41,697 bases of DNA from Chrysochromulina tobinii (taxonomy: Eukaryota > Haptophyta > Prymnesiales > Chrysochromulinaceae), in assembly GCA_001275005.1 (NCBI GenBank), contig JWZX01002978.1, positions 1-41,697 on the forward strand, read 5' to 3'. Position numbers and translations under genes: made by a program. The notes under the pieces were generated by a model. The model was given only the letters and a program-made list of their open reading frames with translations. It was not told the origin of the DNA and made no database searches. Positions 8,296 to 31,109 of this stretch are shown here, piece by piece (within the stretch, counting starts at the first letter, position 1; each line of letters begins with the position of its first letter).

Positions 8296-8763
8296 GCGCA
8301 CTTGGGCTCGCTGGTCGATCCGTCGATCCGGTGACAAATGAATCTTTCTCTCGCAACCACGAGTACAGACGTGTGAACGTTAACACGACAGACGCCGGTG
8401 CGACGTGAAAATGGCGCTTCGGGACGCTCTAAAGATCTCACAACCTTTGGGCTAAGCGCGCAGTGCTCCGGGTGCGCGCGCGCGGCGGGATTACTGCCTG
8501 TGTTTCCCAATGTCTGCCATGTCCCGCGACCCGCGTGCCTCACTGGCGCCAGGTGGCCTGCCAACTGCCTCTTGCGTCCGGGCGCATGTGCGCTGACTCG
8601 CACTGACAGCAATGCGTCCGCCCATGGATGTATGACCGTTTTGCGGAAGCCCTCATGTTTTTGTAACCGCTCTCCAAAACGACTCTCCACTCTCTCCGCG
8701 TCCGAGGGTTTCCCAGCCACCTGAGCAGGCGGCCGAGGTACCGGGGGGGCGCCCCGGCGTGCA
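8296..8763. promoter_or_regulatory. probable bidirectional promoter
   Basis: 468 bp lie between the start codons of two divergent genes, so both promoters and 5' UTRs must be here. No TATA box is obvious. This rests on gene arrangement alone. Confidence 0.45.
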
Positions 8764-11700
8764 ATGCCGAAGTCGGCAGACCTAGTGTCGGAGACAAAGC
8801 AGTTGGCTAAGAAAAACTCTGGCAAAAGCGCTCGCAAGAAGGTCACTCGAAAGGATATAAAGTCGGCTGAGTCGCTGCCGGAGCTGATCAATAAGCTGGT
8901 CAAGCGTATCAAAGAAGGCGACGCCGAGATCAAGGAATTTTCGGCGGCAGCGCTCAAGGAGATTGCGGGAATGGATCACGGCTCGCACGCAGCGGAGCTC
9001 TCGCGAGCGGGCGCCATTGAGCCGCTGGTCAGGTTGCTCTCGTGTGGCGCGGCGAACACGCAGTGCTCTGCGGCATCGGCGCTGGCCGGGATCGCGGTCA
9101 TGAAGGCGGAATACCAAAAGCAGATCGTGGCGGCGGGCGGCGGGCCTGCGCTCGTTGCGCTTCTCAAGACGGGAAGCGCCAAGGTGCAGGAGGAGGCGGC
9201 TGCGGCGCTCGCGACGCTGCGCGTGGACGTGAGCTTCCAGAGCGAAATCTTGCGGGCGGGCGCGATCCCGGCGCTGGTGGGGCTGCTCAGCAATGGCTCG
9301 GCCATCGCGCAGGCAGCGGCTGCGCAGGCGACCGCCAATGCCGCCGCCTACAGTGCGCACGCTCAACGCGAGATTGCGAAGGCGGGCGCCATCCCGCTGT
9401 TGCTCACACTTCTTGGTAGTGGAAAGGCGCAGAAGCCGGCGGCGGTGGCGCTGGGCAATCTGGCGGCGAACAACCGAGAGATCCAGGACATCGTGGCCGG
9501 TCTCGGCGGCGTCGCGCCGCTCCTCGCGCTTCTCAATGGAATGGATGTCGAGTCACAGGTGGAAGCTGCCGCGGCGCTCGCAGAGATGGCACGAGACAAC
9601 CCTGAGACACAGTCAGCCATCGCCAAGTCGGGCGGTATCGGGCCGCTGCTCGCAATGCTCGGGTCGCGCGTAGCCGCCGCGCAATCGCGCGGCATGGCGT
9701 GCCTGGCGCAGCTCGCGCGCAACAACAAGGAGAACCAAGACTCGATTGCGCGCATGGACGGCCTGACACCACTCTGCCGGCTACTCGACGCTGGAGAAGA
9801 TGCGGCGGAGGTCCTTTGGTGCGCGGCGTGCGCCATCATGGAGATCACGCGGAACAACCTGGAGAACCAGCGCTTCGTCGTGGATTTGGGCGGCATATCC
9901 TATCTCGCCGGTCTCATCAAGCTCAGCAGCAACACACGTGTCAAGGCGGAGGTCGCGGGCGCCTTTTGGGCCTTATCTGAGGATGCAGCCATCAAGTGTA
10001 CGATCGCAGAGAATGCCACGATCTTTCCCCTCGTGCAGCTTTTGGCTGTGGACGACGCGCGCGCAACGGAGCATGCTGCGTGTGCCATCCTCTCGCTCGG
10101 CCTCGATAATAAGAAGAATCAAATCCAGATCGCACAGATGCTCATCGAGTTGCTAACGAACGGGTCGGAGGCAACGCAGGACCGCGCAACAAAGGCGCTC
10201 TGGGGGCTCGTGAACCAGAATCCGTCCGCGCACGATGCGATCGCAAAAGCAGGCGACCCGGCGGCGCTCGTCGAGCTGCTCAAGAGGGACTATGCCGATG
10301 TAAAGGACTACGCGCTCTGGTCTCTATCACTCGCGATCTCGAGAGAGAACCAGATGACAGTGGCCGAGTCGGGTGGCATCTCGCCTCTAATTGCATGTCT
10401 GGGCGACATGCGCCCCAAGATCCAAAAGCAAGCGGCCGCGGCGATCGCCAAGCTCGCACGCAACAATGACGACACCCGCTCGCAGATCGCCAAGCTCGGC
10501 GGCGTCAAGCCTATTATAAAACTTCTCCAGCCGTCGGCCGCGTGGCAGGAGTGGGCCAAGAAGCAAGTAAAGCTAGAGGCGGCCGTAAAGCTCGAAGCTG
10601 CGAACCTAGAGGCTGTTTCGAGGCAGGCTGATAAGATAGAAGAGGGCAAACTGACGGAAGCGGAGCTGGGGCCACGCGTCAACGAGCCGGACGCGGACGG
10701 GAGCGGCAAATTGGCCACGAATGATTACATCAGGTTCTCGCTGCACGAGGCCTTGCGCCGCTCCTCGGTGAACTTGATCAACATGTTTCAAAGGTGGGAC
10801 GAGGATAGCAACGGCATTATCGATAGATTTGAGTTCCGCCGTTCGGTCCGCGCGCTCGGCTTCGACGCCATCGACTTCCCGGATTCCGCCATCGACGCCG
10901 TCTTCGACGAGTTCGACGAGGATGGGTCCGGCAGCCTGGACTACAGGGAGCTGGCTCAGCAGATGGCCAAAGTCGAAAAGGGGGGGATGGAAATGGGTGC
11001 GATCGGCAGTGCGGCCGCCGCGAGGAGCAGAGGCGCTACCATCGAGCCTGTGCCTGTGCACGAGGATGCCACCGACGCGCTGGCCAATCTCGCAGCGGAC
11101 GCGGCCGCGCGCGACGAGATTACGAACACCAGTGGCATCACGAACATTGTGGCGCTGTTGCAGACGCTCGGCTCGAATACGAAAAAATTCGCGGCGATAG
11201 CGCTCGCAGCCCTCTCCAAAGATCATGAGGTCACGCAGAGTGCGATCGCCAAGGCAGGCGCGATCGGCCCGCTTGTGTCGCTGCTCGATGGCAACGAGGG
11301 TCCAGAGGCCCAGGAGGCGGCCGCAGGAGCCATCCTCGCTCTGGCAGACCACGAGGCTAATCGGCACATGATCACTGAGAGCGGCGGCATCGGCTTCCTT
11401 GTCATGCTGCTCGGCTGCACCAACCCGAAATCGCGCGAGCACGCCGAGGGCGCGCTGGTGCGCCTTTCGATTGAGAATGCGAATCGAGTGCAGATCATCA
11501 AGAAGCTCGTGCACATGCTCCAGGACCCAGGCGCCGGGGGACAGGAGCAGGCTGCTGCCGCGCTCGCCAACCTCGCGCGCGAGTCCGAGAACAATCGCCA
11601 GTCGATTGTGGACGCAAACGGCATCACGCCGCTGCTCGAGATCCTCGACGCGTCGTCTGCCAAGGCCAAAGAGAATGCGGTCGACACGATCAAGGAGCTC

Positions 11701-14700
11701 TGCCGCAACTCAAAAAACAACCAGGCGCAAGTGGCACGAGCGGGCGGCATTGCCAAACTCGTGGGCGTGCTTCAGGGCTTCTCAGTCAATGCACTCAAGG
11801 AGTCGACAGTGCTGCAGCTGATGACGCTTGCGGCGTCGGCAATCAAGGAGATGGCCAGGGACAACCGCATGAACCAGGACGCGATCACCGAGGCGGGCGC
11901 CATCGGGCCTCTAGTCTCCATGCTCATTGCGCCATCGCCGGTGATGCAGGCAAATGCGGCGGGCGCGCTCGCCAACCTCGCGCGCAACCATCCCGACAAC
12001 CAGGGCGCGATCACGAAAACGGGCGCGGTGGCGCCGCTCTGTGTGCTCATGAAGGAGGGCAGCGACGATACGAAGGATGAGTCTGCGTTTGCCATCTGGT
12101 CACTAGCGACGAATCACCAGGGCAACAAGGACACGATTGCCAAGCTTGGCGGCATCGACCCTCTCCTCTCGCTGCTTGTGACTGGCTGGACGGAGCGCTC
12201 TGTGGAGTGCGTGGCGGGCGCACTCACTGCGCTCGCCGCCAAGCACGCCGAGAACCGCGGTGTGATCGCCAAGCGGCTCGTGGGTCTGCTCGGCTCCTCG
12301 GCCGTCCGCACGCCCGATCGCGCCGAGCGTGTTCTGCGCACATGTGCGGGCTTTCTGAGCGACTCGTCGGCGAACCAGGTGACCTTTGCGAAGCTGGGCG
12401 GCATCCCGCCGCTCATCGCATGGCAGGCGAAGGATGCAGTCGTCGCTGCCGGTGCCGAGCAGGCGAAAATGGCCAAGCGAGTGCAAGCACAGGCGGCGCG
12501 CTCGATGCTCTGCCTTGCTGCCGACAATGCGACGACCCAAGCGCTCATCGCCAAGTCCGATGGCATCCCGCCGCTCATCGGACTCGTAAAGAAGAGCTCC
12601 GCCGAAGCGCAGCAGCACGCGGCGTGTGCGCTCTGGCACCTGGCGTCGCTCGCCGAGAACCGCGCGGCAATCGTCGAGGCGCAAGGCATCAAACCACTCA
12701 TCTCGATGCTCACCGCCGACGAGGAGCTTGACGAGGGGCGCGAGGCGCGTCACCCGAATGAGCTCTCGGCCCTTTTGCTTGTGCGTCTCGGACGGTCGAA
12801 CTCCGAGGTTTCGGCCGAGATTGCGGAGAAGGGCGGCGTGCTGCCCCTCGTCAAGCTGCTCTCTAAGGGCACACCAGGCGCGGAGCAGATGGCGGCGGCT
12901 TTACTCGCAGAGTTGGCTTTGGTCTCGCGCAACCGCGACAAGATTGCCAACGCGGGGTGCATCGAGTCGGCCACTAAGTTGCTCAGTTCGACTACTGTCG
13001 GCACGCCTGAAGTGGCGGCGCGCCTGCTCGCGCACCTGGCATACAAGGATGGACCGAGTGACCCGACTGCTGACCTCTCGCCCCGTGGCCCGGGTGAGAT
13101 GCGCTTTGAGGCAGAGCGACGCGCGAAGATGCACATCACAGGTGCCATCAAGAAGCTGATCGCGATGCTCAATAACACGCATCTGACTGGTTTCTCCGTG
13201 CAGGACATGATCACTCTCGAGCCGGTGCACGGGCTCAAGGAGAAGGAAGACCCAACCCTCAAGGTCGGCTTGAAGGAGCAGGCAGCGATCACGCTCGCCG
13301 AGATTGCGCACGACAACCACGACATGCAGGATGCGATTATCCACGCGGACGCGGTGGCGCCGCTTCTCACGTGCATCCGCACGGGCTCGCAGCTCGGGCA
13401 AGAGCACGCGGCGCGTGCGATCTGGCACTTAGCTGCACTGACGGAGGGGCAGGGCGAGCTCGTTGCCAAGGGAGCCATCCCTGAGCTCGTGCAGCTGCTC
13501 AAGACGGGCTCGCCGCGTGCGCAGGAGATGGCAGCGGCAGGTCTGATGGACCTCTCGCAGGGTGCCGTCGAGCTGCGCATGAAGCGACAACAGGAGACGG
13601 GCTACATGCCCGTGCTCAAGCCGCCGCCAGTGCTCATTGGTCCCGACGGCGTGCGTGTCGTGCCGCCCGTTGCACAGGCGGTCTCAAGCATTGCGACGGG
13701 CGACGACCCTCCGGATACAGATGGCGCCGTGCTGGCCGCCGCGCCGGTGCCGCCCGCGCCGACAGGGGTACTCGACGAGCCCGAGTGTGCCGAGCGACGC
13801 GATGCGCGTGCAAGGGGGCCTCACTCGGAGGACCGGCGCGGCGCCGGCGACTCGTCCGATCGTCTCGTGCTCATTGCAGACGCTGGTGGCGTTCTGCCAC
13901 TGTTAAACCAGCTCACGAACGGCACGATGCAGGCGCGTGAGAATGCGGCAGGCGCGCTATGGCATCTTGCGCTCGAGGTGTCCAACCAGAACTTGATCGC
14001 TAAGTGCAACGGCATCTCGCCCCTCGTCAACATTCTCGACGACGGCACCGAGCAGGCGCACAAACATGCTGAGAATGCGCTCGCGCGACTCGCGTTCCAG
14101 AATATCGACAATCAAATCTCGATTGCCAAGTACTGCGTCGCGCTGCTCGGCAACCAGAACACGGGCGCGCAGCGGCGCGGCGCACGCGTGCTGCGCGACC
14201 TAGCAGCGGCCAATCCGGGCTCGCCCGTGCTTATTGTGAATGCGGGCGCCATCTCGCCGCTTGTGAACCTGCTCACAACCGGCGTTTCAGAGGTGAAGGA
14301 GGAGGCGGCGGGTGCTCTCTCGACGCTCGCCTTCAACTCGCCCTCGACGCAGCTCGCGATCGCGTCCGGCTTGGTGAACCTTGTAGGCAGTGGCTCGGCG
14401 GAGGCACAGGAGCAGGTGACGCAGCTGCTGCTGCGCCTCGCACATGACCAGGCCAACTGTGTTGCCATCGCGAAAGCTGGGGCGATCCAACGGCTCGTCA
14501 TCCAGTTGAAAGGCGGAGGTCGTACCTCGATCAAAGCTCAGGAGCTCGCTGCAGCAGTGCTCTCGCACCTCTCCACACTTGAGGAGGAGTGCAAGGCCAT
14601 CACCGCCGCAAACGGCATCCGACCCCTCGTGGTCATGCTCACGTCCGGTACGCCAGTGGCGCAAACGCATGCGGCGGCAGTGCTCTCGGACATCGCGCGC

Positions 14701-17700
14701 CTCTCCGTCCGTAATCAGCGCCAGATCATCTCAGAGAACGGGATCGCGCCCCTCGTCAATCTCCTCTCCAAGGAGAATAGGCCCAAGGCCAAGGCCGAGG
14801 CGGCAGGTGCGCTGCTGTACCTGTCAGCCGGCCAGCCCGCAACCCAGAAGGCGATCGCCGATGCAGGCGGCCTGCGGGCGCTCGTGGCGCTGCTCAACGA
14901 GGAGGATGATCTCTGCCTCAAAAAGGCCGCAGGCGGGCTCGCAGCCCTCTGCCAAGGCTCGATGGAGAACCAGGACGCCGTGGAGAAGAATAAAGGCATC
15001 AGTAAGCTCGTTGGGCTGCTCAAGCCGCCGTACACGGCAGAGGTGAGCGCCGCAGCGGCGGCGGCGCTCGCGGTACTCGCCGAGGGCAACTCCAAGAACC
15101 AGGACAAGGTGGCGGCCGCGGGGGGCATCGAGCCGCTCGTTTATCTCCTCGAGGACCACCCCGGAGAAAACCGAAGCGGAATCGGCACATCGGGTGAGCA
15201 AGGGTACGGTCGAGCGTCGACACCTGGGGTCGATGGGTACGAGCTTGCGAAGCAGGAGGCTTGCGGTGCGTTGTGGTCGCTCTCGTCCGGGCACAATCTC
15301 AACCAGATCGCCATCGCTGAGGCGGGCGGCATTTCGAAGCTCGTAGTGGTGCTTGGGCAGGGAAGCCTGCGCGCTCAGGACCAGGCCGCTGGCGCACTCG
15401 CGGCGCTCGCGCTCGACAATATGAAGAATGAGTTCTCGATTGCGGAGATGATGGTGGCATTGCTCGGCTCAGAGGATCCCAAAGCATGTGCCAAGGCCGC
15501 GCGCGCCATCTCGCGGCTCGCCCGCACGCATGTGTCCAACCAGCGAGCGATTGCGAACGCAGGTGGCATTGCTCTCCTTGTGCGGTTGCTCGAGGCGAAC
15601 AGCAAAGACAAGTCCTCATTTGGAGAGGGTGCTGCCGAGACTGCCGAGGCCGATGCAAATCGGGCTGTGTGCCGCGAGATGGCGAGTGCCATATGGTCCA
15701 TGGCCGCCAAGAATGAGGCCAACCAGATCGCGATCTCCAAAGCGGGCGGCATGCCGCCGCTCATCAGGCTGCTTCTCGTGGGTCACCCTGATGTGCACCG
15801 GGACGTGGCGGGCGCGCTCGGGGCCCTCGCCTCCAATGATGACCTTCGGAAGGCCATCGCTGACGCGGGCGGCATTGCCCCGCTCGTCGAGCTGCTCAGG
15901 CCACCCCCTAATGGATACCCACCCCAAGATGCCGAGTCCAAAAGAGAGGACTCGGTTTCGACAGAGTTGGCACAGGTGCTAGGGGCGCAGGAGGCGGCCG
16001 CTGGTGCGCTCTCGGCCCTTGCCGTCCTCGCCGACAACAGGGTTGCCGTTGCCCAGGCGGGCGGCATTCCGCTACTCGTCGCTCTGCTCGACGGCGCGAC
16101 CGACGAGGCCAAGGAGGAGGCAGCGAACGCGCTGCAGACGCTCGTGCTTCAGAATGCGTCGAACCAGCTCGCGATCGTCAACGAGGCGGTCGCCATGCTG
16201 AAGACGGGCTCCCCCATGGGGCAAGAGCACGTGACCAAGCTCCTGCGCAACCTCGCGCAGGACCCCGAGAACCGGTCGGCGATCGCAAAAGCAGGCGCGG
16301 TGCCTGAGCTCGTGCGCCAGCTCGAGTGTGGCTCCGAGCGCGCGATGGGCATGGCCGCGAGCGGACTGGCGCTCATCGCGCTCAAATCGGACAAGGACCG
16401 AGCTACGGTGACCAACGAGCTCGTCAAGCTGCTCTCATCGAGCAAAGAGGCTGTACGCCAGCGTGCGGCCGAGGCGCTTACCGACATGGCTGCAGGTGAA
16501 GGCTCGCACACGAAGCACCGCCAAGGCAATCAGAATGCCAACGGCGTACCACTGGTAAACCTGCTCAAGGACGGGCTCAAGGACGGACGCGTGGAGGCGC
16601 AGGAGTACGCGCTGCGCTCGCTGCTGGCCATCTCGGACAACTCAGCCAAAGAGGCCATCGTCGAGGCAGGTTGCATCGTGCCACTCATCGAGACCCTCCG
16701 GCAGGGAAAGCTCTCGGCCGTCGCGCAGGAGCACGCAGCCGCCGTCGTCTCTGGCCTCGCGCCACTCGGCCGCAACGCCCTCGCCATCCACCGCGCCGGT
16801 GGCATCGACCCTCTCGTGCTGCTCCTCTCGACCGGTACCGCGGAGGCGAAAGCCCATGCCGCAGCGTCTCTTGCACAGCTCGCACGCCGCGCGAGCGCCG
16901 CGTCGCAGATTGCGCAGGCGGGCGCCGTGTCGGCATTCGTCCGCTGGCTGGCTGACCCGAGCCTTGGCCCATCGGAGGTTGCCGCGCGAGCGCTCGCTGA
17001 GATTGCGCTCGACAACCCGGACACGCAGACTCAGATCGCCGAGGAGGGTGCCATCTCCCCTTTGGTCGACATGGTCGGCGCGTGGAAGGTAACCGCTGCG
17101 GCCTCCGAGCTCGCCGCTGCGGCCGTGCCAGCGCCGGGCGCCGCCGCCGTCGCCGCCGTCGCCGTCGCCGTCGTCGTTGGCGCGATTACCCCGGTCGATA
17201 CGATCGAGCAGGAAGCGGTGGCCAAAGCAAAGCAGGCTGATGAGGCGCAGGCGGCGAATGCTAAGATGCGTGCGGCGAAGAAGGCGCTTGCCGCAGCGCT
17301 CAGAGTGGCCACCGTGGCTGCGAGTGCGCTGGCAACGCTGGCCAAGAACAACGTGAGCAACCAGATCCGTATCACGGAGGAGAACGGCATCGGGCCGCTC
17401 GTCGAGCTACTTAAAACTCCCTCAGAGACGTATGAGCACTCGACCAAGGCACTCTGGCACCTGGCGGCGAATGAGGAGAACCAGACGGCGATCGCCAAGG
17501 CGGGCGGCATAGCGCCTCTCGTGCAGCTCCTAAGCAGTGAGAGCGCAGTGACGGCACAGTACGCGGCCGCGGCACTGCAGTCTCTCGCGCGCGAGCACGC
17601 CGAGAACCAGATCGCGATCGCCAAGGCGGGTGCCATCGCGCCGCTCGTCAACCTGCTGGCCTCCGAGTCTGTGGAGACGCAGGAAAATGCGGTCGCCGCG

Positions 17701-18984
17701 CTGCTCCACCTGGCTTCACAAGACGTGGCCTCACGCAACACGGCCGTCAAGCAGCTTGTGGCGGTGCTCTCGCAGCGCAGCGCAACCGCGCAGATGAAGG
17801 CCGCCGAGGCACTCGCCGTGCTCGCTGCGCGTTCAGAGGAGAACCGCAAGGCAATTACCGCCGCTAACGCCATCGAGCCGCTTGTGGTGCTGCTCGGCGA
17901 CGGGCGGCGCGTGAAGGTGAACACGCCGCAAGAGCGCGCGGCGGCAGTACTTGCCGACCTCGCGCGCACAGGTGACAACAAGAGCTCTATTGTGAAGGTG
18001 GGTGGCGTGGGTCCGCTCGTCGCGATGCTCTCGTCCGACTCTCGCGACGCCCAGACGCATGCTGCCTGCGCCATTTGGCAGCTCGCGGCACTCGGCACGA
18101 ACAAGACGATAATCGTCGACACGGGCGCCATCCCGCCGCTCGTTGCGCTTCTGGCCATCGGGATGACCGAACTCGATCAGAAGATGCTCCCGCAGCGGTA
18201 CGCCGCGGGCGCGCTCTGGCATCTTGCCTCGTCCGCCGACAACAAGACGCAGATCGCCAATGCGGGCGCCATCCCGTTGCTCGTCGAGATCTTGTACTCG
18301 AAATTCTCCGAGTGTCGCGAGCATGCGGCCGGCGTCCTCTCGGCGCTCGCACGCACGCAGGGCGGGAACAAGAAGGCGATCTTCCAAGCGCGCGGCATCC
18401 CCCCCATCGTCAAGCTGCTCTCTGACTCGCGTCTGATCACGCGTAAGTACGCGGCGAGCGCTCTTTGGGGTCTATCAGACGGGAAGGATGGTGTGTACGA
18501 CAAGTACATTGCCGAGGCGGGTGCCATCCCGCCGCTCATTGCGATGCTGCAGGAGAACGAGGAGGAGACTCGAGGGTTTGCAGTCGCTGCTTTGCTCTGC
18601 ATCTGCCGCGACAAGACGGCACATCCAGCCATCCTCGAGGCGGGTGGCGCAGAACTGCTGCAAGCCCTCTCTTATGGGCCGGCGACGCGGTTACGCGAGC
18701 AGGTCGTTGAGATGCTCACGCTACTTGACGTTGAGGTGCCCAATGAGGACTCCGCCCCGGTGCCTCTGCCCGTCTCGATCGTCAAGGGCCCAGACGGCGA
18801 GATGGTGCCTGCGGCCTTGCCCGGAGCCACGGGCCGTACCGCCGGGCGCACCGGGCGCCTCTCGCTGGCGGCGGGCGCCCAGGCAACATCCCGCGCCCAG
18901 GAAACGTCGCGAACGGCGCGCATGCGGTTCCACTTCTTTAGCTTCCAGATCGCCAACACCACCGGGTACTCCGGGTTTACATGA
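8764..18984 (+). CDS. Giant armadillo-repeat protein with embedded EF-hands
   Basis: 3,406 residues in one uninterrupted 10.2-kb exon, starting at ATG 8764 after a short Lys-rich leader. The sequence is a long array of armadillo repeats of about 41-42 residues, each recognisable by I-A-K-A-G-[GA]-I-x-P-L-V-x-L-L followed by A-A-x-A-L-x-x-L-A and NxxN, so probably several tens of repeats. At about 643-729 three EF-hand loops interrupt the array: DADGSGKLATND, DEDSNGIIDRFE and DEDGSGSLDYRE. A disordered acidic/Pro linker lies at about 1615-1700, and an Ala/Val-rich hydrophobic stretch at about 2785-2815 could be a membrane helix. Armadillo solenoids are protein-binding scaffolds; the EF-hands suggest calcium control. 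The C-terminus is basic and disordered. The partner and location are unknown. Confidence 0.9.
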   Translation: MPKSADLVSETKQLAKKNSGKSARKKVTRKDIKSAESLPELINKLVKRIKEGDAEIKEFSAAALKEIAGMDHGSHAAELSRAGAIEPLVRLLSCGAANTQCSAASALAGIAVMKAEYQKQIVAAGGGPALVALLKTGSAKVQEEAAAALATLRVDVSFQSEILRAGAIPALVGLLSNGSAIAQAAAAQATANAAAYSAHAQREIAKAGAIPLLLTLLGSGKAQKPAAVALGNLAANNREIQDIVAGLGGVAPLLALLNGMDVESQVEAAAALAEMARDNPETQSAIAKSGGIGPLLAMLGSRVAAAQSRGMACLAQLARNNKENQDSIARMDGLTPLCRLLDAGEDAAEVLWCAACAIMEITRNNLENQRFVVDLGGISYLAGLIKLSSNTRVKAEVAGAFWALSEDAAIKCTIAENATIFPLVQLLAVDDARATEHAACAILSLGLDNKKNQIQIAQMLIELLTNGSEATQDRATKALWGLVNQNPSAHDAIAKAGDPAALVELLKRDYADVKDYALWSLSLAISRENQMTVAESGGISPLIACLGDMRPKIQKQAAAAIAKLARNNDDTRSQIAKLGGVKPIIKLLQPSAAWQEWAKKQVKLEAAVKLEAANLEAVSRQADKIEEGKLTEAELGPRVNEPDADGSGKLATNDYIRFSLHEALRRSSVNLINMFQRWDEDSNGIIDRFEFRRSVRALGFDAIDFPDSAIDAVFDEFDEDGSGSLDYRELAQQMAKVEKGGMEMGAIGSAAAARSRGATIEPVPVHEDATDALANLAADAAARDEITNTSGITNIVALLQTLGSNTKKFAAIALAALSKDHEVTQSAIAKAGAIGPLVSLLDGNEGPEAQEAAAGAILALADHEANRHMITESGGIGFLVMLLGCTNPKSREHAEGALVRLSIENANRVQIIKKLVHMLQDPGAGGQEQAAAALANLARESENNRQSIVDANGITPLLEILDASSAKAKENAVDTIKELCRNSKNNQAQVARAGGIAKLVGVLQGFSVNALKESTVLQLMTLAASAIKEMARDNRMNQDAITEAGAIGPLVSMLIAPSPVMQANAAGALANLARNHPDNQGAITKTGAVAPLCVLMKEGSDDTKDESAFAIWSLATNHQGNKDTIAKLGGIDPLLSLLVTGWTERSVECVAGALTALAAKHAENRGVIAKRLVGLLGSSAVRTPDRAERVLRTCAGFLSDSSANQVTFAKLGGIPPLIAWQAKDAVVAAGAEQAKMAKRVQAQAARSMLCLAADNATTQALIAKSDGIPPLIGLVKKSSAEAQQHAACALWHLASLAENRAAIVEAQGIKPLISMLTADEELDEGREARHPNELSALLLVRLGRSNSEVSAEIAEKGGVLPLVKLLSKGTPGAEQMAAALLAELALVSRNRDKIANAGCIESATKLLSSTTVGTPEVAARLLAHLAYKDGPSDPTADLSPRGPGEMRFEAERRAKMHITGAIKKLIAMLNNTHLTGFSVQDMITLEPVHGLKEKEDPTLKVGLKEQAAITLAEIAHDNHDMQDAIIHADAVAPLLTCIRTGSQLGQEHAARAIWHLAALTEGQGELVAKGAIPELVQLLKTGSPRAQEMAAAGLMDLSQGAVELRMKRQQETGYMPVLKPPPVLIGPDGVRVVPPVAQAVSSIATGDDPPDTDGAVLAAAPVPPAPTGVLDEPECAERRDARARGPHSEDRRGAGDSSDRLVLIADAGGVLPLLNQLTNGTMQARENAAGALWHLALEVSNQNLIAKCNGISPLVNILDDGTEQAHKHAENALARLAFQNIDNQISIAKYCVALLGNQNTGAQRRGARVLRDLAAANPGSPVLIVNAGAISPLVNLLTTGVSEVKEEAAGALSTLAFNSPSTQLAIASGLVNLVGSGSAEAQEQVTQLLLRLAHDQANCVAIAKAGAIQRLVIQLKGGGRTSIKAQELAAAVLSHLSTLEEECKAITAANGIRPLVVMLTSGTPVAQTHAAAVLSDIARLSVRNQRQIISENGIAPLVNLLSKENRPKAKAEAAGALLYLSAGQPATQKAIADAGGLRALVALLNEEDDLCLKKAAGGLAALCQGSMENQDAVEKNKGISKLVGLLKPPYTAEVSAAAAAALAVLAEGNSKNQDKVAAAGGIEPLVYLLEDHPGENRSGIGTSGEQGYGRASTPGVDGYELAKQEACGALWSLSSGHNLNQIAIAEAGGISKLVVVLGQGSLRAQDQAAGALAALALDNMKNEFSIAEMMVALLGSEDPKACAKAARAISRLARTHVSNQRAIANAGGIALLVRLLEANSKDKSSFGEGAAETAEADANRAVCREMASAIWSMAAKNEANQIAISKAGGMPPLIRLLLVGHPDVHRDVAGALGALASNDDLRKAIADAGGIAPLVELLRPPPNGYPPQDAESKREDSVSTELAQVLGAQEAAAGALSALAVLADNRVAVAQAGGIPLLVALLDGATDEAKEEAANALQTLVLQNASNQLAIVNEAVAMLKTGSPMGQEHVTKLLRNLAQDPENRSAIAKAGAVPELVRQLECGSERAMGMAASGLALIALKSDKDRATVTNELVKLLSSSKEAVRQRAAEALTDMAAGEGSHTKHRQGNQNANGVPLVNLLKDGLKDGRVEAQEYALRSLLAISDNSAKEAIVEAGCIVPLIETLRQGKLSAVAQEHAAAVVSGLAPLGRNALAIHRAGGIDPLVLLLSTGTAEAKAHAAASLAQLARRASAASQIAQAGAVSAFVRWLADPSLGPSEVAARALAEIALDNPDTQTQIAEEGAISPLVDMVGAWKVTAAASELAAAAVPAPGAAAVAAVAVAVVVGAITPVDTIEQEAVAKAKQADEAQAANAKMRAAKKALAAALRVATVAASALATLAKNNVSNQIRITEENGIGPLVELLKTPSETYEHSTKALWHLAANEENQTAIAKAGGIAPLVQLLSSESAVTAQYAAAALQSLAREHAENQIAIAKAGAIAPLVNLLASESVETQENAVAALLHLASQDVASRNTAVKQLVAVLSQRSATAQMKAAEALAVLAARSEENRKAITAANAIEPLVVLLGDGRRVKVNTPQERAAAVLADLARTGDNKSSIVKVGGVGPLVAMLSSDSRDAQTHAACAIWQLAALGTNKTIIVDTGAIPPLVALLAIGMTELDQKMLPQRYAAGALWHLASSADNKTQIANAGAIPLLVEILYSKFSECREHAAGVLSALARTQGGNKKAIFQARGIPPIVKLLSDSRLITRKYAASALWGLSDGKDGVYDKYIAEAGAIPPLIAMLQENEEETRGFAVAALLCICRDKTAHPAILEAGGAELLQALSYGPATRLREQVVEMLTLLDVEVPNEDSAPVPLPVSIVKGPDGEMVPAALPGATGRTAGRTGRLSLAAGAQATSRAQETSRTARMRFHFFSFQIANTTGYSGFT

Positions 18985-21605: not shown

Positions 21606-24600
21606 TCAGCGTCCCTTCATATGGCGGCTCTTGAGATACAACAGGACGTCACCTGCGACGTTCCAGACGAACGAGAGCGCTGCCGCTGGTTGCCCTCGCT
21701 CATCCATCGCCATGCCGCTCGCCTCCTTTTGCGCCTCAGAACCGTGCTTCCTGCATGCATCCGCTTGAGCTTGTTGCTCCTCTTGGCGCTTCTTGAGGCT
21801 TGCCTCGGCCGCCCTGTAGCCACGCGTATAGATGGCCTGTGCGAGGCAAATTTGCTTTTCGGACGGTCTCTCGATTGGCGTAAGGAAGTCACGCTTCGGG
21901 TCGTACTCATCGAGAAAGGGCGCCATGAACAGGTTGCTGTAGTACTCTCGTAGCTCGAGCATCTTCTGGTCCTTATGCTCCTTAGTTTGGGCGCAGTTTG
22001 GAAAATGCTGCGCCTGCTGGAGGATCGAACTCACCTTCAGATTGTACTCTTTGCGGTACTCGTCCCAGCGCTTACTCTCTTTCTTGAGCCAATCCCCGTC
22101 GACGTCGCCGATTTGTTCTTTCAACTTGAGGTGGTCGTCAAGCCCAAAAGATTCTGCAACACTGCTGCTGCCCTCGAGCGCCTTGCCATTCTCGTAGAGC
22201 TCCATCATGACCGACTTGAACTCGCGTCGCCTCATAGGCTCGAGTTTCGTCTGCGCCTCCTCAAACGTTAGGTACTTGATGTGCGGGTCCTTGCTCCTGC
22301 CGCTCATCCAGATCGGGTAGATAGTTGTGATGTAGTCGTCGATCCTCTCGGACTTGGCGCCTGTCTTGCCCGAATCCAGGCTCGCTGCGCAGGCGAGAGA
22401 ATGCGAGCGCCGTCACGAGCGCCGCGCGACGAGGTCAGAAAGGGGAGGATCGCGTCCAAAGGCAGTCCAAAGGCAGTCCAAAGGCAGTCCAAAGGCATTC
22501 CAAAGGCAGTCCAAAGGCAGTCCAAAGGCAGTCCAAAGGCATCAAGGCAAGAAAGCGGACGATCAGGTGTGTGGAGCCGAGCGCGCTCTCAAGCTCGAGC
22601 GCGCGCTCTCAAGCTCGAGACGGGCATACCGTAATAGGTGTCGACGAGTTTTCCCTTGACTTGACTGTCGTCCGCGCCGTACCAGTCGCCCTGCGCCATG
22701 ATGTTGAAGGCTGCCTTGGCGAGTACATCGAGCTCATTGTACTTGCGATCGAGGGCGAGCCCAGCGAGGATGAGCGTGCGTGCCGCGCGGTCAGAGAGCC
22801 GCGCCTCCGCCACCTTGGCTGCGGGCTCATCCGCCGGCCCCTTGCGCACGGGGGCATCTGCTACAAGCTCCACCAGTTTCGGGTCAGTGAGCACGACGAA
22901 CTCGTCACCATCGTAGTCGGCACCGCCCAGCTTGTCAGCCGCCGCTTGCGAGCCGCGTACGGAAAAGAAGATGGCGTTCTGACGCTCTGAGGAGCCGCCT
23001 GCAAGCATCTGGTGCAGAGCTGGTGGCGGCGGCACGTGCTTGAAGCGGCGCAAGTCGCCTGGGTGGCAGCCGGGCGCGTGATAGACGAGCACCCAAAGGT
23101 GGCCATCGGTGCTGCCACCATCGGCCAACTTGGGCTGCAGCGGCTTGCCTTCGATCACCACCACAATCTCGTCCGACTCGAGTGAATCCGTCTGATCGGG
23201 CACACCAACCACGTAGTGCGAGTCGGGCAGGCGCCACTTGCCCTGGCACAGGTTGGACAGCCTGTTGGCCGCCTCCTTCTCCAGCAGCTGCGCGAGGTAG
23301 GGCTCGTGAAGCGAGAAGCCCGCCTGCAGCATCTCGAGTGCGCGGCCCCCGCTGCCCGTGCTTAGCATACGCAGTATCTTATCCTTGCGCTCGCGCTCGA
23401 GCGCCTTCTCCGAGGGCACGTTGAGCACCGAAATGCGCCGCTTCTCGTCGGCCTGCTGCGCCTTGAGCAGCTCGAGCAGCGCCTGGCGGCATTTGCCGGC
23501 GACGGGATCCTTGCGCAACGCATTCGCCTCGAGCAGTGCGACTAGGCTCGGGTTGGACTTGCACTGTGAAGCACGCTCAAACGTGTTGCACGCGAGGATC
23601 TTGCACACGCGGTGGTATCTCTTGCCAGCCCTCACCTTTGCTGGTTGCACCTTCACCATCTCGCGACGCAGCACGATGAGCTGCCCCTGCAGCTGCGCCG
23701 CCGTCGTGAGCGTGCCCTTTGCAAGATAGCCTTGAAGCCACGCTCGAATCTGCGTGACGAGCGGCGCCGATGTCTGCTTTTTAACCCCATCATCCAAGGC
23801 TAGCTGCTTGCTGCCGCCCTGAATGGGTTCAATGTGCTTCGCGAGCTCGAGCGAGATGAGCCCGCCCCCGTCCGTCATCACCTTGCCCGTGTCGCCCTTG
23901 ATGTCGTCGCAGACAAGAACAAGTGTCTCGCCCTCCGCCACCGTGTACTCAAAGGGCCGCCCCTGATGGTCACGCAGCCCTGTACTGGAGAGGTAGAGCG
24001 CGGACTGCACCTCCTCGATGCGTACCGTCTCCAGCTGCGGCTGCAGGATGTCGAGGGCATGGGAGAAGAGAAGGTCCCGCCGCTTGAGCTGCTTGACCGC
24101 GGTGGGCAGCTGATCAAAGGCTGCGAGCGCGTTGATGGCCTCCTCGGGATCGTGCCATCGGAAGCCCTCGCGCCTGCACCAAAGTGACGCAACGCACAGG
24201 GTGACGTGAGCAGATCCATGGCCTTTGAGCCGAAGGCAGACGCCAATGCGTAGGGGTGGAGAGTTCATCCATTTGGTCACTCACGAGAGCAGTCCCTCTG
24301 GCTCATGCAGGCTTGGGCACGCGAGCAGGTAGATCTTGGTGTCGCTCTTTCGCTGATCTGTCTTGCAGCCCAGGAAGCGGAACGTTGTGCCGAGTAACTG
24401 CACGCCGTCGCTCAGCCGCTGCGCGAGCTTCGCCTCCAGCTGCTTTGCCGCTTTCTTCTCAGCTGGGGGAGCGCCCCAAGCCACGAGCCGCTCCGGCAAG
24501 TCGACGCGAAGAACACACTCGGACTGCATGCGCAGGGCCACCCAGACCGAGGCGGCATGTCAACACGTTGATTGGGCTGAGAGAGAGCAAGGCAGTGTGT

Positions 24601-25276
24601 GTGGCGCGCGCACCCCGAAGACAGCGTGTGCGATGGTGGTCCCAATCGACCTGCCCGCCGTCGCTCCGAAGCTGCTCAGCTGCGGCTCGCCGTTCTTGTC
24701 CAGCTCCACGTGGTAGCGCACCGACTTGCCCTGACGGAAGAGGTCCTCGTCATCATGAACGTGGAACTTGAGGCCGGGGAACCAGATGCGAACCTTTCGG
24801 TTGGCCGCCTGCGCCCCATAGCAAATAGCCTCCTTGAGAAGCACAGAGATTCGAGTGGGCTCAGCCTGCGAAGGATGCAGGCAGTTAGGCAGACGGTAAG
24901 CACAGAGCCACTTTCTCGCACGCTCGCAAGTTAAGTGCACAGTGCGGTCGATGGCTCATACTACCTTGTTCAAATCTTTGAGGTTGAGTTCCTTGCATTC
25001 GAGCATGGCGGCCATCAGCGCAAACGCACGTGCACGGCACACGCGATCGTCCGCCTCGTACTTGGCGACGATTTCTTGGGCGTGGCTTTCTTCGAGCTGG
25101 CTCTTCAGCCAGTCCGGACTAAGCTGTGTGTGCTCAGTTGCTGAGACGAAGATTTGCATCAGGGATTGGGGGAGTGGAGGCCCCTTGCCGAGTGTAGCAC
25201 GCCGCAGCTCCTCGAGCTTGTCGCGGCTTGCAGCCTGCCTTTGCTGCTGCTGCTGCCGATCCGATGAATTGGCGTC

Positions 25277-25327
<51 letters not shown>
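21606..25327 (-). CDS. Cellular RNA-dependent RNA polymerase (C-terminal part of probable fusion)
   Basis: Exons about 25327-24965, 24865-24614, 24523-24285, 24173-22630 and 22384-21606. All four introns (24866-24964, 24524-24613, 24174-24284, 22385-22629) are GT-AG and phase-consistent. The protein is a eukaryotic RdRP of the RDR/QDE-1 family, which makes double-stranded RNA for small-RNA silencing. Diagnostic segments are VMTDGGGLIS, VYHAPGCHPGDLRRF and the catalytic GGADYDGDEFVVL, whose three Asp residues hold the magnesium ions. After the intron at 22629/22385 the reading DTYYASLDSGKTG fits the family's ...DxPKTG motif. The C-terminus SFVWNVAGDVLLYLK is also typical. No ATG in frame lies upstream of 25159 and the frame stays open back through the CAG tract, so it probably continues the helicase gene; if separate, the start would be ATG 25159. 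Confidence 0.88.
22454..22541 (-). repeat. 11-bp minisatellite x8 inside an RdRP intron
   Basis: Eight head-to-tail copies of GTCCAAAGGCA (plus strand), one with TT in place of GT. They lie inside intron 22385-22629. A separate direct repeat of GCGCTCTCAAGCTCGAG lies at about 22584-22620, near the donor end. Confidence 0.95.
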
Positions 25328-25331
<4 letters not shown>

Positions 25332-28300
25332 GTCGAGTTGAGCTTGGAGCGCTTGAGCCGCCTCGGCTCCCTCTTGCACTCTCTTCTCCTTTTCTTGCTC
25401 CGCTCGCTTGCTTGCTCGATGCTTCTCCTCCGTCTCCTGCTCCAGTTTTCTCTCCATTAGAATTGATTTTCTCCTCATCTCTGCGATCTCTTCTCTCGCC
25501 TTCTGGAGCTCATCCGCAGCCTTATCGGACGATGCCTTGTCAGCCGCCGCATTCATCTGCTGAGCCGCCGCGTCAGTCTCACCAGCCAAGTTTGGCGGCA
25601 CTGATACCATCTCTGCGACCCCTGGCTGCCGAGATGCATTCTCGGCTGCCGCCTGCCCAGCAGCAGCCTGCTCAGCCTGCCCAGATACATGCCGAGATAC
25701 CACCGACTGCTCAGCCGCAGCCTGCTCAGCCGTAGCCTTGTCGGTTGCTGTCGCCTTCATCTGCTGACGTGCCAAGATGGGCGGCACCAATGGCAAGCCA
25801 AGCACATTCGGTGCAGGCCACATGGGCACCTGGATCCCATTCGGCGGCCATGTGTGCGGCAACCTTGCGAGAGGCGTTGCTTGCATCGCTATCAATGGAG
25901 GGAGGACGTTTGATAGTAACAGCGAAGGCATTCTTGGTCCCGTCGTCGCGCGTAACTCAGGGAGGTCATAGGGCGGTAGTAAATCGTCGCAGGGCGGCAC
26001 GCCTTCGATGGCCCATTCCTTGATTTGGCGGCAGAGAGAATCTTGATGGAAGATGTTCACACCGAGCATACCCATTTTCTTCTTGTCTGGGCCCTGATCC
26101 TTATCACGCATGTCGATGAGGTCCCTGAGCGCTTGTCCGTTGATCTCGTGCTTCTTGAACGCTTCTTGATAGCGGTTGCGAACCTCCGAATCACCTGGGA
26201 AGACGACGGCGAGCAGTTGACAAACCTCCGTGATGCTAAGACTCTCGATAGGCCGATGACCGTTACGTATCTTAGGCTTCCGCTTCCCCGTTTGGACCCG
26301 TCTTCTCACGCAGGTGTGCGTACGGTGTAAGCCACGGCACGCATCACAGCTCAGGTCGGGCTGTGCCTCAACTGCGTCGTTCGAAGCAGGGTACGCTACC
26401 ACCACCACTGACCTTTCAGCCGGTGGAGCCGCGTGCTCAGCCATCGAAGATGACGATGCGCCCGCAGATGGCTGCGATGTGGGAGCTGGAGCGGTATCAC
26501 CATGCGGCGGCGCCGGCGATGGTGCTCGAGTCGCGGTTGCCTGACGGCGCTTAAAAAATGCATCGAGGTGGCTCTTATCCAGGTTGGAGCCGGGCTCCCA
26601 CGTCTCCTCCTTCTCGTTGAAGCCGTTCCGAGCGCACGGCTCCCACCGCACGAGGTAGTGGGGCTCCAACTTGTTCGTTTCCTGGTTAGGCAGCATCTTT
26701 TCGTCAAGAATGGTCCGGATGAGGTAGCACTGATTTGGGTCGCGCTCGCAGTCTGGGCAAAACCAGGGGGTGCGATATGGCGGGCTGCATCGGCCCCCCA
26801 GAAATGCGGGCCCGCATGACGCATGCAGGCCCTGCATGCATTGCGCGCCTGCACAGCACGCATCCCCCTCGTCCGCCACCTCCTTTTTACAGTGCATGCA
26901 GATGAACTCGCCGTCGTCCTCATCGCTATCGGGGGGCATGCATTGCACCTGCTGATACTCTGCGTGGCTCAAGTGCCACGGCATCGGTAGCATCACCGAC
27001 ATCGCCTCGACCCCTGGCGCTGCACACAACTTCTTGCGCATGATCTCGCCGTCGACGGACAGGAAATAGACCGCGTGCCCTCTGTCTTGGCCCCCCGGCC
27101 CAACGTGGGCGCGCCGTTCACAGCTCACGAGCTTCGCTGGCACGAGCGCGTGGTCCAGAAAGGCCCGGAGCTTGTTCTCGTCTTGGGTGGTGCCATTCTG
27201 GCCCCGCTTGGGCTTGCCACGCAACGTGAGCGGCATCTCATCGTAGCGCGCGCGCATCGGCGTGCCCGGCTCCTTGGCCTTATCTAACAGGACTCTCCAC
27301 GACTTTGCGCTCTGTTGGCACGTTGCATCACACGCAAACAGCAAGTCGACAAAGAACCCCACCTCTGAAGCAAAGTTGAAGGTCCTTGCGGAGCTCTTGT
27401 CGCAGCAGACATCGCACTTTTTGCAGCCGTCCTTGACCAAGAAAGACGCGTCCTCGCCGCAGAGCCTCGAGAGGGTATGCCAGCGGCACGTCGTGGTCGC
27501 CTCAAGAAATTGACCAAGCAATGCGCGCGAGTTGGGCGTGTGCCCCGCCTCCATGAAATCTTGCGCCGCCGCGAAGACGGTGCACCTGGCTCGCTTGCCG
27601 TCACGCCCCGGCCTGCCGATCTGTTGCACCAGTTGCTCGAGGCTCTTGGGCATGCAGTAGAGGATGACGTGGCGCAGCTCAGGGTGATCTATCCCCTCTC
27701 CGAACGATTGGCCGGTGGCAACGAGCACGTCGATCGTCGAGTCCATGAATGCCTGATGAGCGGCCGCGTTCTCGGCATCGGAGCGGCCCTCCTTGTAGTA
27801 CAGGGCTACCTTCAGGCCGCCCTGCTCGAGAACCTTTGCAATCTGCCGAGCCGTCTCGCGCTTGGTCACGTAGATCAACGTGAGCCCCACGCGCTCGGGC
27901 AGCGGCTCAATTCGCCGTCCCGTCTGCTTGCAGTGGCGCTCGTCAACGAGAAATCGCAGATTGTCCTGCTTGCTCGTCCGAGGGAGGACCTGAATCTCGA
28001 GAGCCAACAGGCGTCATCAGGCGTCATCAGGCGTCATCAGGCGTCATCAGGCGTCATCCGGCGTCATCCGGCGTCATCCGGCGTCATCAACGCACCTGGA
28101 TCTCGATGTTCTCGCGGTAGATAGGCAAGATGAGCTCGAACGATTTGGAATCACGCGGATTGAACTTCAGGGAGCTGTTGGTCGGTCCGAATTTGAGCTT
28201 CTCCTTGATGGCCGTGCGCGCCGCCTGCGTCGCCGTGGCAGTCGTGGCGATGAAGCGCACGGGCGGATTGAGACCTTGTAAGAACTCGATGGCGCGCGGG

Positions 28301-31109
28301 TACTCTCGGGCGTGCTGCAAATGAGATGAGCCTTCCTCAGTCTCGTCGGATAGAATCAGATTGTGGGCCTCGTCCACAACCACGTTGAGAATCTGGCCCA
28401 TATCGTTAAGGACCGAAATGGCCTTTTGGACGGCATTGTTCTTCGAGAGCTTCTCAGGGGTGACGTAAACCAATCGGATCTCCGTATTCTGCAGCAGGAA
28501 GCTCATGGTCTGATTATAGTTTAGGCCATCGCCGCCCTCGAGGAAGGAGGCTACCTCACGCTGAGTCTGCTGGTTCACGCGTTCAACTTGATTTCTCGCC
28601 AACGCCTTGGTGGGAACAATAACGATCGTCTTTGTCTTCGGGGTCATCAGGGCGGGGCTGTGCGCACGGCGAAATAGCAGGCCCGCTCATGAGCAAGAGC
28701 GAATCTTAACAGAGGTAATCAGAGCACGAGAGCTCACCTGGTCAGAGGTAGCTTGGAGGCAATCAGGATGCACTCATGCAGAAAGTTGCACGCTAAGGCT
28801 CCGGTAGGCCATGGGCTCACAGTTGGTAAATAAGCGATTTGCCACCGCCCGTCGGTAAGATGAACAATAGGTGACGCTGCTTCTGTGCCGTGTCAAGGAC
28901 GACTTTGAGACCGACTTCTTGGGCATACTTGAGCGAGTTGAACCCAAAATGCTCCTTGGCGCCAGCGCTCGCAGGGCTTGGCGCCGAAGCTTTTGCTGGC
29001 GCTTCCTTTGGCCTCTCCAGCTTCCTGCGCTGCGCGATGCTTTCATCATCGGCAACAGTCTGGCGGGCTGATGGAGGAGGTGCCGCCGCTGGCGCTTCCT
29101 TGCGCTTCCTTGCGCTTCCTTCCGCCGCTTCCTTGCGCTTCGCCGTCGGCCCTTCCCTTGCCTTTGCCGCAGCCGCGGCCGCCAATGCTTGAGCTTGCGC
29201 ACCTTCTTCTTGCCTCTCCAGCTTCCTGCGCTGCGCGATGCTTAACTCATCGGCACCAGTCTGGTGGGCTGATGGAGGAGGTGCCGCCGCTGCCGCTTCC
29301 TTGCGCTTCCTTGCGCCTCCTTCCGCCGCTTTCTTGCGCTTCGCCGTCAGCTCATCTTCCCTTGCCTTTGCCGCAGCCGCGGCCGCCGCCTCTGCCTGTG
29401 GCATGAGCTCCTCGAACGGTTGGGCTCCTCGAGCGATGCGCTGCTTCTTGAGGGGAGGCGCAGTGGCGAGGCTCAAAACCAGGCGGACTTTGACGCTACC
29501 GTCGGGCACGCATAAGGGCCTGCACACGGCCGTGACCAAGGGCGTCTTGCACTCGGCATCATCATCGCCGCTGAGGCCACCTACCCGAGGGCTTGGCTGC
29601 TTGCTCGGGGCCTTGGCAGCGGGCTTGTGTTTGGCAATTGCGGTGGTTGGCAGTGTGGCGGCTGCGGTCGAAGGTGCCATGCTCTGCGCGTGAGTCTGCG
29701 GCTCCAGGTTGAAATAGCGCGCGACCTCGGCTTTAGAACGAAAGCGATTGCCCTGTGTACGTGGGGGCAGGGTGGGGTGGGTGAGCGCTTAAGACTGACC
29801 TGCAGGGCTGTGCGCACGACGGCGCCGCGCTCCCGCTCACTTGCGGAGTGAAGAAGTACGAGTCGGGGGTGCCTGCAGTTGCGCCCTCCTTGCGGAAGTG
29901 GGTCTTGGTGTACCAGCCATTGATCATCTCCGCCGAGCCGCCGCAGTTCTCGAGGTACTCCGCCAGTGACGCAAGGAGTTTCACGGAGTGCTCGGACGAG
30001 TCCGCATCAGCGTGGACCCGCATCTTTGACGTCCGCGCCTGTTTTGGCTCTGCTTGTGGCATGAGCTCCTCGAACGGTTGGGCTCCTCGAGCGATGCGCT
30101 GCTTCTTGAGGGGAGGCGCCGTGGCGAGGCTCAAAACCAGGCGGACTTTGACGCTACCGTCGGGCACGCATAAGGGCCTGCACACGGCCGTGACCAAGGG
30201 CGTCTTGCACTCGGCATCATCATCGCCGCTGAGGCCACCTGCCCGAGGGCTTGGCTGCTTGCTCGGGGCCTTGGCAGCGAGCTTGTGTTTGGCAATTGCG
30301 GTGGTTGGCAGTGTGGCGGCTGCGGTCGAAGGTGCCATGCTCTGCGCGTGAGTCTGCGAACACGGAAGCTCCTCGGGGTCATCGTGACGAATGCGTTGCT
30401 TTTTGGCGACCGTCGCCGCGGCTGGCTGTAATGATAGGCCAACGGCAACGCTGCCATCGGCCTTTTTCGAGAGCGTACAGCAGGCCTCGACCAAACGCTT
30501 CGCACGGCTGTCACGCAAATGGCCTCCGCCATCGCTGCGGCTTCCAGTGACCCTGCCGTCGCCCCGAGTGGCTGGTGGTTTGGCGACGGTGCCTGCTGCG
30601 GCGACCCGGCCTCGAGAGGCTCGGCCGGAGTCATTGTCAACGGGTAGCGCGCCCTCCTTTGACATAAGGGCGAAGAGTTCCTGCGCGGCCTCCAACCGCA
30701 GGCGCTCGTCGATCCGAGCGAGCTTACCCACCAACTCCTCGCTGCCGGCTTGCTCTCTGAGCTTACCCACCACCTCGTCGCGGAGCTCGCTTCGACACAA
30801 CTCGAGTGCGGCAGCGACGCTTGCCTGCTCGGCCACGCCATCCCTTGACGCTCGCCCAATGCGCTTAACACCAAAACACCGATCGCCCGTCTTCCTCGTC
30901 AAGGTCTTCGCAGCCTGGTCAACGCTATCCACGTCACGCCAGGTGATGGTCACTTGATGGTCCAGGGCGTCGACGAGCACGACCATGCCAAGCTCCGGCG
31001 CACACCAAGTGGATCCGGAGAACTGCGCGTCCTTCATGAGCACCACGAGGTCCCACTCTTGCAGATCAGGCTTTGACGTCCTCGCGCGTTTTGGCGTCGT
31101 CGCTGCCAT
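25275..31109 (-). CDS. RecQ-type helicase with MBD-like, PHD, chromo and SAM-like domains
   Basis: Exons 31109-29841, 29752-28821, 28657-28096 and 27989 to about 25380 or the TGA at 25275. Introns 29753-29840, 28658-28820 and 27990-28095 keep phase. The start is ATG 31109 (MAATTPKRARTSK). An MBD-like segment, DSYFFTPQ|GNRFRSKAEVARYF, is rebuilt by the first splice (about residues 405-442). Helicase motifs follow: Walker A PTGGGKS (about 726), VVVDEAHNL, ATTATAT, then VLVATGQSFGEGIDHP and QQIGRPGRDGK of RecQ type, and a CKKCDVC zinc region. Next come a PHD finger (about 1283-1337, CMHC...CPDC), a chromodomain (about 1341-1400, HYLVRWE...TWEP), a SAM-like domain (about 1504-1581) and a coiled coil. 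RecQ enzymes unwind 3'-5' DNA; the readers suggest targeting to modified chromatin. It probably runs on into the RdRP. Confidence 0.85.
25280..25330 (-). repeat. (CTG/CAG)17 microsatellite at the helicase-RdRP junction
   Basis: Seventeen perfect triplets. Read in the helicase frame they are Ala (GCA) codons ending at TGA 25277-25275; read in the RdRP frame they are Gln (CAG) codons continuing into the polymerase. The change of frame between the two halves therefore falls at or just before this tract. Confidence 0.95.
28011..28090 (-). repeat. 10-bp minisatellite x8 inside a helicase intron
   Basis: Eight tandem copies of GCGTCATCAG or variants (CCG, CAA endings) fill most of intron 27990-28095. 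On the coding strand the unit reads CTGATGACGC, so each copy carries a branch-point-like CTGAT. Confidence 0.97.
29391..29699 (-). repeat. 309-bp in-frame direct duplication, copy A
   Basis: Nearly identical to 30049-30357, offset 658 bp, with only a handful of differences by eye (for example at 29582 and 29619). It encodes about 103 residues running from MAPSTAAATLP to EELMPQAE in exon 2 of the helicase gene. Confidence 0.95.
30049..30357 (-). repeat. 309-bp in-frame direct duplication, copy B
   Basis: Partner of 29391-29699. Copy B lies in exon 1 of the helicase gene, copy A in exon 2, with the MBD-like segment and intron 29753-29840 between them. Confidence 0.95.

Follow-up and report, generated by a model that had tools for sequence, protein, structure and literature searches.

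It has long been asked how an RNA-dependent RNA polymerase (RdRP) picks out its proper template. In Neurospora, the RdRP reportedly requires a RecQ helicase in order to function, and to our knowledge it is undecided whether the two enzymes make direct contact and whether they are paired outside the fungi. A locus in the haptophyte Chrysochromulina tobinii raises this question within a single gene. It lies on one contig (JWZX01002978.1; 41,697 nucleotides, hereafter the window) of a 53.15-Mb assembly of 2,253 contigs (GCA_001275005.1), and an earlier note had read its helicase, chromatin-reader and RdRP parts as one protein. Is this one protein or two, and what would it do? The locus itself is confirmed as more than a chance arrangement, since three database relatives can be aligned with it part by part in an unchanged order.

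On the minus strand, the gene model runs from an ATG at 31109 to a TGA stop that ends at 21606, with eight exons joined by seven GT–AG introns (Table 1). The start and stop of the earlier note stood, whereas seven introns suffice in place of its eight. The open stretch upstream of a CAG tract is 1,825 residues and that after it 1,038 residues, about 2,860 residues in total with the tract included, which bears out the proposed length of about 2,850 residues with a sole frame change. That change falls in the tract (25330–25278), which reads as alanine in the upstream frame, ending at a stop at 25275, and as glutamine in the downstream frame. All seven exon joins elsewhere keep the frame, no further break occurs in about 2,860 codons, and the third-position GC of the exons is 0.65–0.80. 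Exon 4 encodes, in order, Helicase_C, the RecQ-type zinc cysteines, a winged-helix-like part, a PHD-like finger, a chromodomain, a SAM-like part, a Pro/Gln-rich linker, a coiled-coil-like part and the CAG tract. The tandem repeats in introns 7 and 3 have units of 11 and 10 nt, respectively, and 8 copies each.

Table 1. Features of the fusion locus in the window, in order of transcription
Feature	Position	Strand	Basis
Exon 1, with start codon, uncharacterised N-terminus, copy 1 of 300-nt repeat and beginning of MBD	29841..31109	-	gene model
Intron 1, 88 nt, GT–AG, within MBD	29753..29840	-	gene model; spliced MBD aligns gap-free
Methyl-CpG-binding domain (MBD), residues 397–442	29696..29921, including intron 1	-	Pfam MBD
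Exon 2, one uninterrupted frame: remainder of MBD, copy 2 of 300-nt repeat, low-complexity basic linker, helicase motif I	28821..29752	-	
Intron 2, 163 nt	28658..28820	-	gene model
Exon 3: remainder of helicase lobe 1, DEAH box	28096..28657	-	DEAD residues 709–879
Intron 3, 106 nt, largely a 10-nt tandem repeat	27990..28095	-	gene model
Exon 4 to stop: Helicase_C through CAG tract	25278..27989	-	gene model, Pfam; aligned with P0002, P0003, P0004
Helicase lobe 2, Helicase_C, residues 954–1052	27597..27893	-	Pfam
RecQ-type zinc-binding cysteines, C..GCKKCDVCC	27348..27500	-	pattern kept in P0002, P0003
Winged-helix-like part, RQC position	27003..27374	-	secondary structure of model; Foldseek
PHD-like zinc finger, residues 1283–1333	26754..26906	-	Cys/His spacing kept in P0002, P0003
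Chromodomain, residues 1345–1402	26547..26720	-	Pfam; PDB CBX1
SAM-like helical part, residues 1500–1585	25998..26255	-	sub-threshold Pfam SAM; well kept in P0002, P0003, P0004
CAG tract, frame change	25278..25330	-	17.7 perfect triplets; Gln in three relatives, continuous frame
Exon 4 after tract, other frame: RdRP N-terminal region	24965..25277	-	open frame 25456–24956
Intron 4, 99 nt	24866..24964	-	gene model; no intron at same place in P0003
Exon 5, ending ..TTIAHAVFG	24614..24865	-	P0003 matches to last residue of exon
Intron 5, 90 nt	24524..24613	-	gene model; P0003 diverges at same point
Exon 6, RdRP	24285..24523	-	gene model, Pfam
Intron 6, 111 nt	24174..24284	-	gene model
Exon 7, RdRP catalytic part with DYDGD at 22918–22904	22630..24173	-	Pfam RdRP
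Intron 7, 245 nt, includes 11-nt tandem repeat	22385..22629	-	gene model
Exon 8, C-terminal part and stop codon	21606..22384	-	gene model

A stop followed by an open frame, as the window is assembled, would also suit a pair of neighbouring genes, the first for a chromatin-associated RecQ, with its end at 25275, and the second for an RdRP that starts near 25160. Relatives of the long exon argue against this arrangement. A search with the 887 residues of that exon returned ten proteins, of which seven cover 12–19% of the query, in the helicase part only. The remaining three are fusion-type relatives on ENA contigs, P0002 (1,189 residues; 31 member sequences; contig of 9,483 bases), P0003 (1,358 residues; 4; 8,786 bases) and P0004 (493 residues; 1; 2,920 bases), with 77.6%, 43.6% and 75.4% identity, respectively, to the long exon over shared columns. 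Because they are 36–82% identical to one another and 44–78% to the window exon, these sequences are taken to represent different species or lineages; in the genome of the window, the fusion-type gene occurs as a single copy. P0002 and P0003 begin within helicase lobe 1 and P0004 in the linker ahead of the SAM-like part, and all three pass through the coiled-coil-like part and the Gln tract into the RdRP N-terminal region in one continuous frame. Upstream of the tract they are 73% (P0002), 49% (P0003) and 69% (P0004) identical to the window, and to its downstream frame 80% over 84 residues, 52% over 171 and 90% over 84. Since the relatives carry no stop at the tract and continue beyond it into the N-terminal region of the RdRP, and coiled-coil-like sequence lies on either side of it, two genes are highly improbable; alignment to these relatives makes a single polypeptide very probable in this lineage. 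Helicase and RdRP always on separate loci in relatives, the outcome that the earlier note had set against its reading, is the opposite of what P0002–P0004 display.

The relatives also define how much of the architecture appears to be conserved. P0002 and P0004 end at the position of window intron 4, with a few intron residues read as in the window frame. P0003 lacks intron 4, continues to ..SIGTTVAHAVFG and departs exactly at the start of window intron 5, adjoining residue 247 of the downstream frame, where the window's Pfam RdRP match begins; this edge of the RdRP domain is set by the window's Pfam boundary and an alignment by eye. Against the RdRPs of the genome, the P0003 tail matches the window at 4.1e-44 and the best other, on contig C514, at E = 0.21. 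In none of P0002, P0003 and P0004 do helicase and catalytic RdRP core share a frame, because introns end the predicted proteins first, and none covers the MBD region. By sequence, then, the helicase joined to the RdRP N-terminal region is the conserved unit, and the whole RdRP, MBD and chromodomain are joined to it in the window. A full-length search with 2,850 residues, limited to proteins of about 1,570–4,990 residues, yielded 87 matches from 7,979 scored candidates, all by the helicase part and none listing PF05183. No relative was confirmed among 19 pattern matches in viral contigs or 110 in prokaryote genomes.

As the relatives read through the tract in one frame, the break belongs to this contig and not to the family. 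It is most likely local, whether through a faulty assembly or allele at the microsatellite or through recent loss, and most likely not the gene's normal state. A fusion that is real in relatives and decaying or null in the present copy would account for the break, for the nearly identical 300-nt direct repeat in exons 1 and 2 and for an assembly with one full match and no second copy. It is nonetheless unlikely, given that the other seven joins are in frame, the remaining codons are unbroken and the catalytic motifs are intact; microsatellites are, moreover, frequent sites of assembly slips. Two other explanations were tried and rejected. An intron across the tract, with a donor in the upstream frame and an acceptor within the tract, is ruled out by P0004 and P0002, which encode the corresponding residues (..ALQAQL and ..ALKAQL, respectively) immediately ahead of the Gln run, so that this stretch is coding. 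The same genome was also examined for another haplotype or paralogue whose tract is unbroken; only the window matches in full, and the four other matches reach 72% over about 110–120 bases of repetitive coding sequence.

The helicase fits a diverged RecQ type best, and its SF2 core lies closer to RecQ than to other families of SF2. Pfam DEAD (2.7e-21) and Helicase_C (1.6e-14) both exceed their curated cut-offs, and the motifs GGGKS (motif I, 28849–28835), DEAH (28374–28363) and QIGRPGRDGK are intact. The best NCBIfam model for the core is TIGR00614 (recQ_fam; 4.5e-53), at 180.7 bits for the 434-residue core submitted against a curated cut-off of 219.8, and we therefore name it a diverged RecQ-type helicase and not a full RecQ member. 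A PDB profile search placed BLM first (3.3e-21), and comparison of a predicted model returned RecQ1, BLM and WRN folds. The best Foldseek matches are to the RecQ1 D2–Zn–WH region over 349 columns, with a whole-length rmsd of 15–20 Å, and VIA-align chiefly covered residues 1–180; model confidence is low to middling (pLDDT 57, and 61 for the RdRP model). The four-cysteine RecQ zinc pattern is kept in P0002 and P0003 and, in the window, scores 7.7 bits against the Pfam RecQ_Zn_bind cut-off of 25. The winged-helix-like part has no sequence match in Pfam or PDB. In its core and lobe 2, and putatively in the placing of its zinc cysteines, the helicase resembles RecQ1, BLM and WRN, whereas in a 27-row tree of helicase cores the three fusion helicases form a branch of their own (100/100) on a stem of 3.37 changes per column, without close kin among the RecQs sampled and with deeper placement unsure from long branches. 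The closest RecQ in the same genome, on contig C2220, is a 1,545-residue frame running off the contig end (2.5e-28; 25% identity over helicase and flanks), and its helicase passes the recQ_fam cut-off with 290.8 bits. An N-terminal and MBD-like stretch that C2220 seemed by eye to share was rejected, with probabilities of 0.1% and 0.7% in single-sequence profile comparison and no Pfam MBD.

The downstream half matches Pfam RdRP (PF05183) at 2.4e-59, with 202 bits against a cut-off of 23.8, over residues 247–875 of its frame. Its DYDGD catalytic motif aligns with DLDGD, DYDGD, DADGD and DYDGD of the four other RdRPs in the genome, and a profile of all five finds maize RDR2 (4.1e-53) and Arabidopsis RDR2 (2.7e-43). 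With the predicted model as query, each of the 21 Foldseek matches at E ≤ 0.001 was QDE-1 or RDR2 (TM by query 0.38–0.46), and on this model the half is a two-barrel cellular RdRP. Searching with the RdRP half gave one match, P0001, 98.6% identical over 515 residues, on a 4,081-base JGI contig with 48 member sequences; the match is unspliced and read into flanking introns. P0001 is therefore this RdRP, from the same organism or one very close to it.

Ahead of the helicase, residues 1–95 have no Pfam match, and the MBD is detected at E = 3.2e-8 (33.5 bits against a curated cut-off of 21), with MBD1 as best PDB match (1.6e-8). Spliced, it aligns gap-free to human MBD1, MBD2 and MeCP2 and keeps the FRK, D-Y and FRSK residues that we take to be methyl-CpG contacts, as in MeCP2. 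The MBD block is flanked, inside the coding sequence, by a 300-nt direct repeat (29390–29689 and 30048–30347; 99% identical), which may be a recent duplication, gene conversion or an assembly artefact. The chromodomain scores 3.1e-6 and 27.5 bits against a Pfam cut-off of 25.1 (PDB CBX1, 1.4e-4); in P0002 it reaches 24.0 bits, just under the cut-off, and in P0003 Pfam gave no match. The PHD-like part has C4HC3-like spacing in the window and two relatives, with no Pfam PHD match for the window piece and E = 0.95 for the P0003 piece, and the SAM-like part stays below threshold (best 4.1e-5, 23.8 bits against a cut-off of 27). The chromatin readers that had been named are therefore upheld for MBD and chromodomain and not, by Pfam, for PHD and SAM. 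The earlier note's reading largely holds, with MBD, DEAD/Helicase_C, chromodomain and RdRP on one strand above curated cut-offs in Pfam searches of both halves.

The reading that we favour, with a probability of roughly 0.55, is that this protein would carry out double-stranded RNA (dsRNA) production of the kind performed by QDE-3 and QDE-1 in Neurospora, tethered in one chain and directed to marked chromatin. Because this chain also holds MBD and chromodomain, methylated or otherwise marked chromatin is the suggested target. The readers would bring the protein there, the MBD through 5-methylcytosine and the chromodomain and PHD-like finger possibly through histone marks; the helicase would open the duplex or clear the template, and the polymerase would copy exposed single-stranded DNA or nascent RNA into dsRNA. 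This product would pass to the Dicer-like enzyme and Argonaute encoded in the genome, which would use it to silence repeats or transposons, and placing both enzymes in one chain would couple duplex opening to copying. We infer, as the earlier note did, that one machine would by itself read marked chromatin, open it and copy RNA. More tentative, and on balance doubtful, is a single-molecule initiator that reads 5-methylcytosine (perhaps also histone marks), unwinds, transcribes the opened strand itself and makes dsRNA; were this true, small-RNA silencing of repeats in an algal lineage would start without another RNA polymerase or a separate recruitment step.

A close precedent lies in quelling and qiRNA production in Neurospora, where the same two enzyme types act and to whose QDE-1, together with RDR2, the RdRP fold is nearest. 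Unlike here, QDE-3 and QDE-1 are separate proteins; the fusion is one polypeptide with an MBD, a chromodomain and a PHD-like finger in addition, and we know of no MBD or chromodomain in either Neurospora protein. Recombinant QDE-1 copies single-stranded DNA better than RNA and does not copy double-stranded DNA, RPA promotes dsRNA production, and the QDE-1–RPA contact is lost without QDE-3 (PMC2950127). The same article reports that QDE-1, QDE-3 and RPA are required for damage-induced qiRNA. The fusion could accordingly be a DNA-damage protein, with its RecQ at broken or stalled repeats and its RdRP making damage-induced small RNAs without chromatin targeting. The presence of an MBD and a chromodomain alongside suggests that the protein is instead targeted to marks, and we consider a damage role rather unlikely as the sole explanation, the two roles not being exclusive. 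Plant RDR2 is likewise a two-barrel RdRP, tied to chromatin through its partner Pol IV (structures 7eu0 and 7eu1), whereas here readers and helicase are fused to the polymerase.

RecQ proteins are, in the cases known to us, DNA helicases. This matters for a further alternative, work on RNA only, in which the helicase would clear RNA structure or R-loops, the RdRP would make secondary siRNAs as in Dictyostelium and the readers would only anchor the protein. Helicase–RdRP fusions, with the helicase N-terminal to the RdRP in one protein, occur in Dictyostelium, some (peronosporomycete) oomycetes, Hydra and Nematostella, and their DEAD/Helicase-C parts are discussed in relation to Dicer (PMC4791657). 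As described there, those fusions are set apart from the present one, which has a RecQ-type helicase, zinc cysteines and chromatin readers; we found no Dicer-like DEAD helicase in it, and RecQ models and structures were matched instead. With a RecQ-type helicase and a DNA reader in the MBD, RNA-only work is the less probable account, although it retains appreciable weight. The earlier statement that no described protein has all these modules needs qualifying by these Dicer-like fusions, and stands for the RecQ combination in a thin literature check, which found nothing relevant on RecQ with RdRP in haptophytes or with chromatin domains. Emiliania huxleyi reportedly has one RDR gene, whose motif is DLDGD, besides Dicer-like gene models (PMC4839659), and the word RecQ is absent from that article's main text. 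A conserved natural fusion in an unrelated lineage would provide independent evidence for direct RecQ–RdRP coupling, the extra MBD and chromodomain suggest which marks label the template, and coupling becomes testable in vitro with one protein.

Silencing genes are present elsewhere in the genome. RdRP matches fall on five contigs, including the window, and in the four other RdRP genes (C990, C1842, C514 and C1320) Pfam detected no helicase at E ≤ 1 within single open frames, that on C1320 beginning at the contig start. Their N-terminal additions differ, with a UBA-like match below cut-off on C990 and two zinc knuckles on C514, and the RdRP family is expanded, with varied domain shuffling. RecQ-type or other helicases match in 25 places, three of them in the window. 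A Dicer-like frame with two RNase III domains lies on C892, and Piwi gave two partial matches (C1111 and C799), one above cut-off; by gene content, the candidate quelling components are the fused RecQ-type helicase and RdRP, and the Dicer-like and Piwi genes. C5-DNA-methylase matches number 12 on 9 contigs, and four MBD loci occur besides the window. The CpG observed/expected ratio is 1.1 in the window and 1.01 in the gene; CpG is not depleted and so gives no sign of heavy CpG methylation. It is plausible that small-RNA silencing and cytosine methylation are both present in this organism, which 58 matches to light-harvesting proteins identify as a photosynthetic alga. Two of the nine methylase contigs, C2140 and C1312, are retroelement-like, each with a long frame that matches both C5-DNA-methylase and a gag-type aspartic protease, as if retroelements there carried a DNA methyltransferase. 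On the plus strand of the window, positions 8725–18984 form a single open frame of 3,419 residues with Armadillo-repeat and EF-hand matches.
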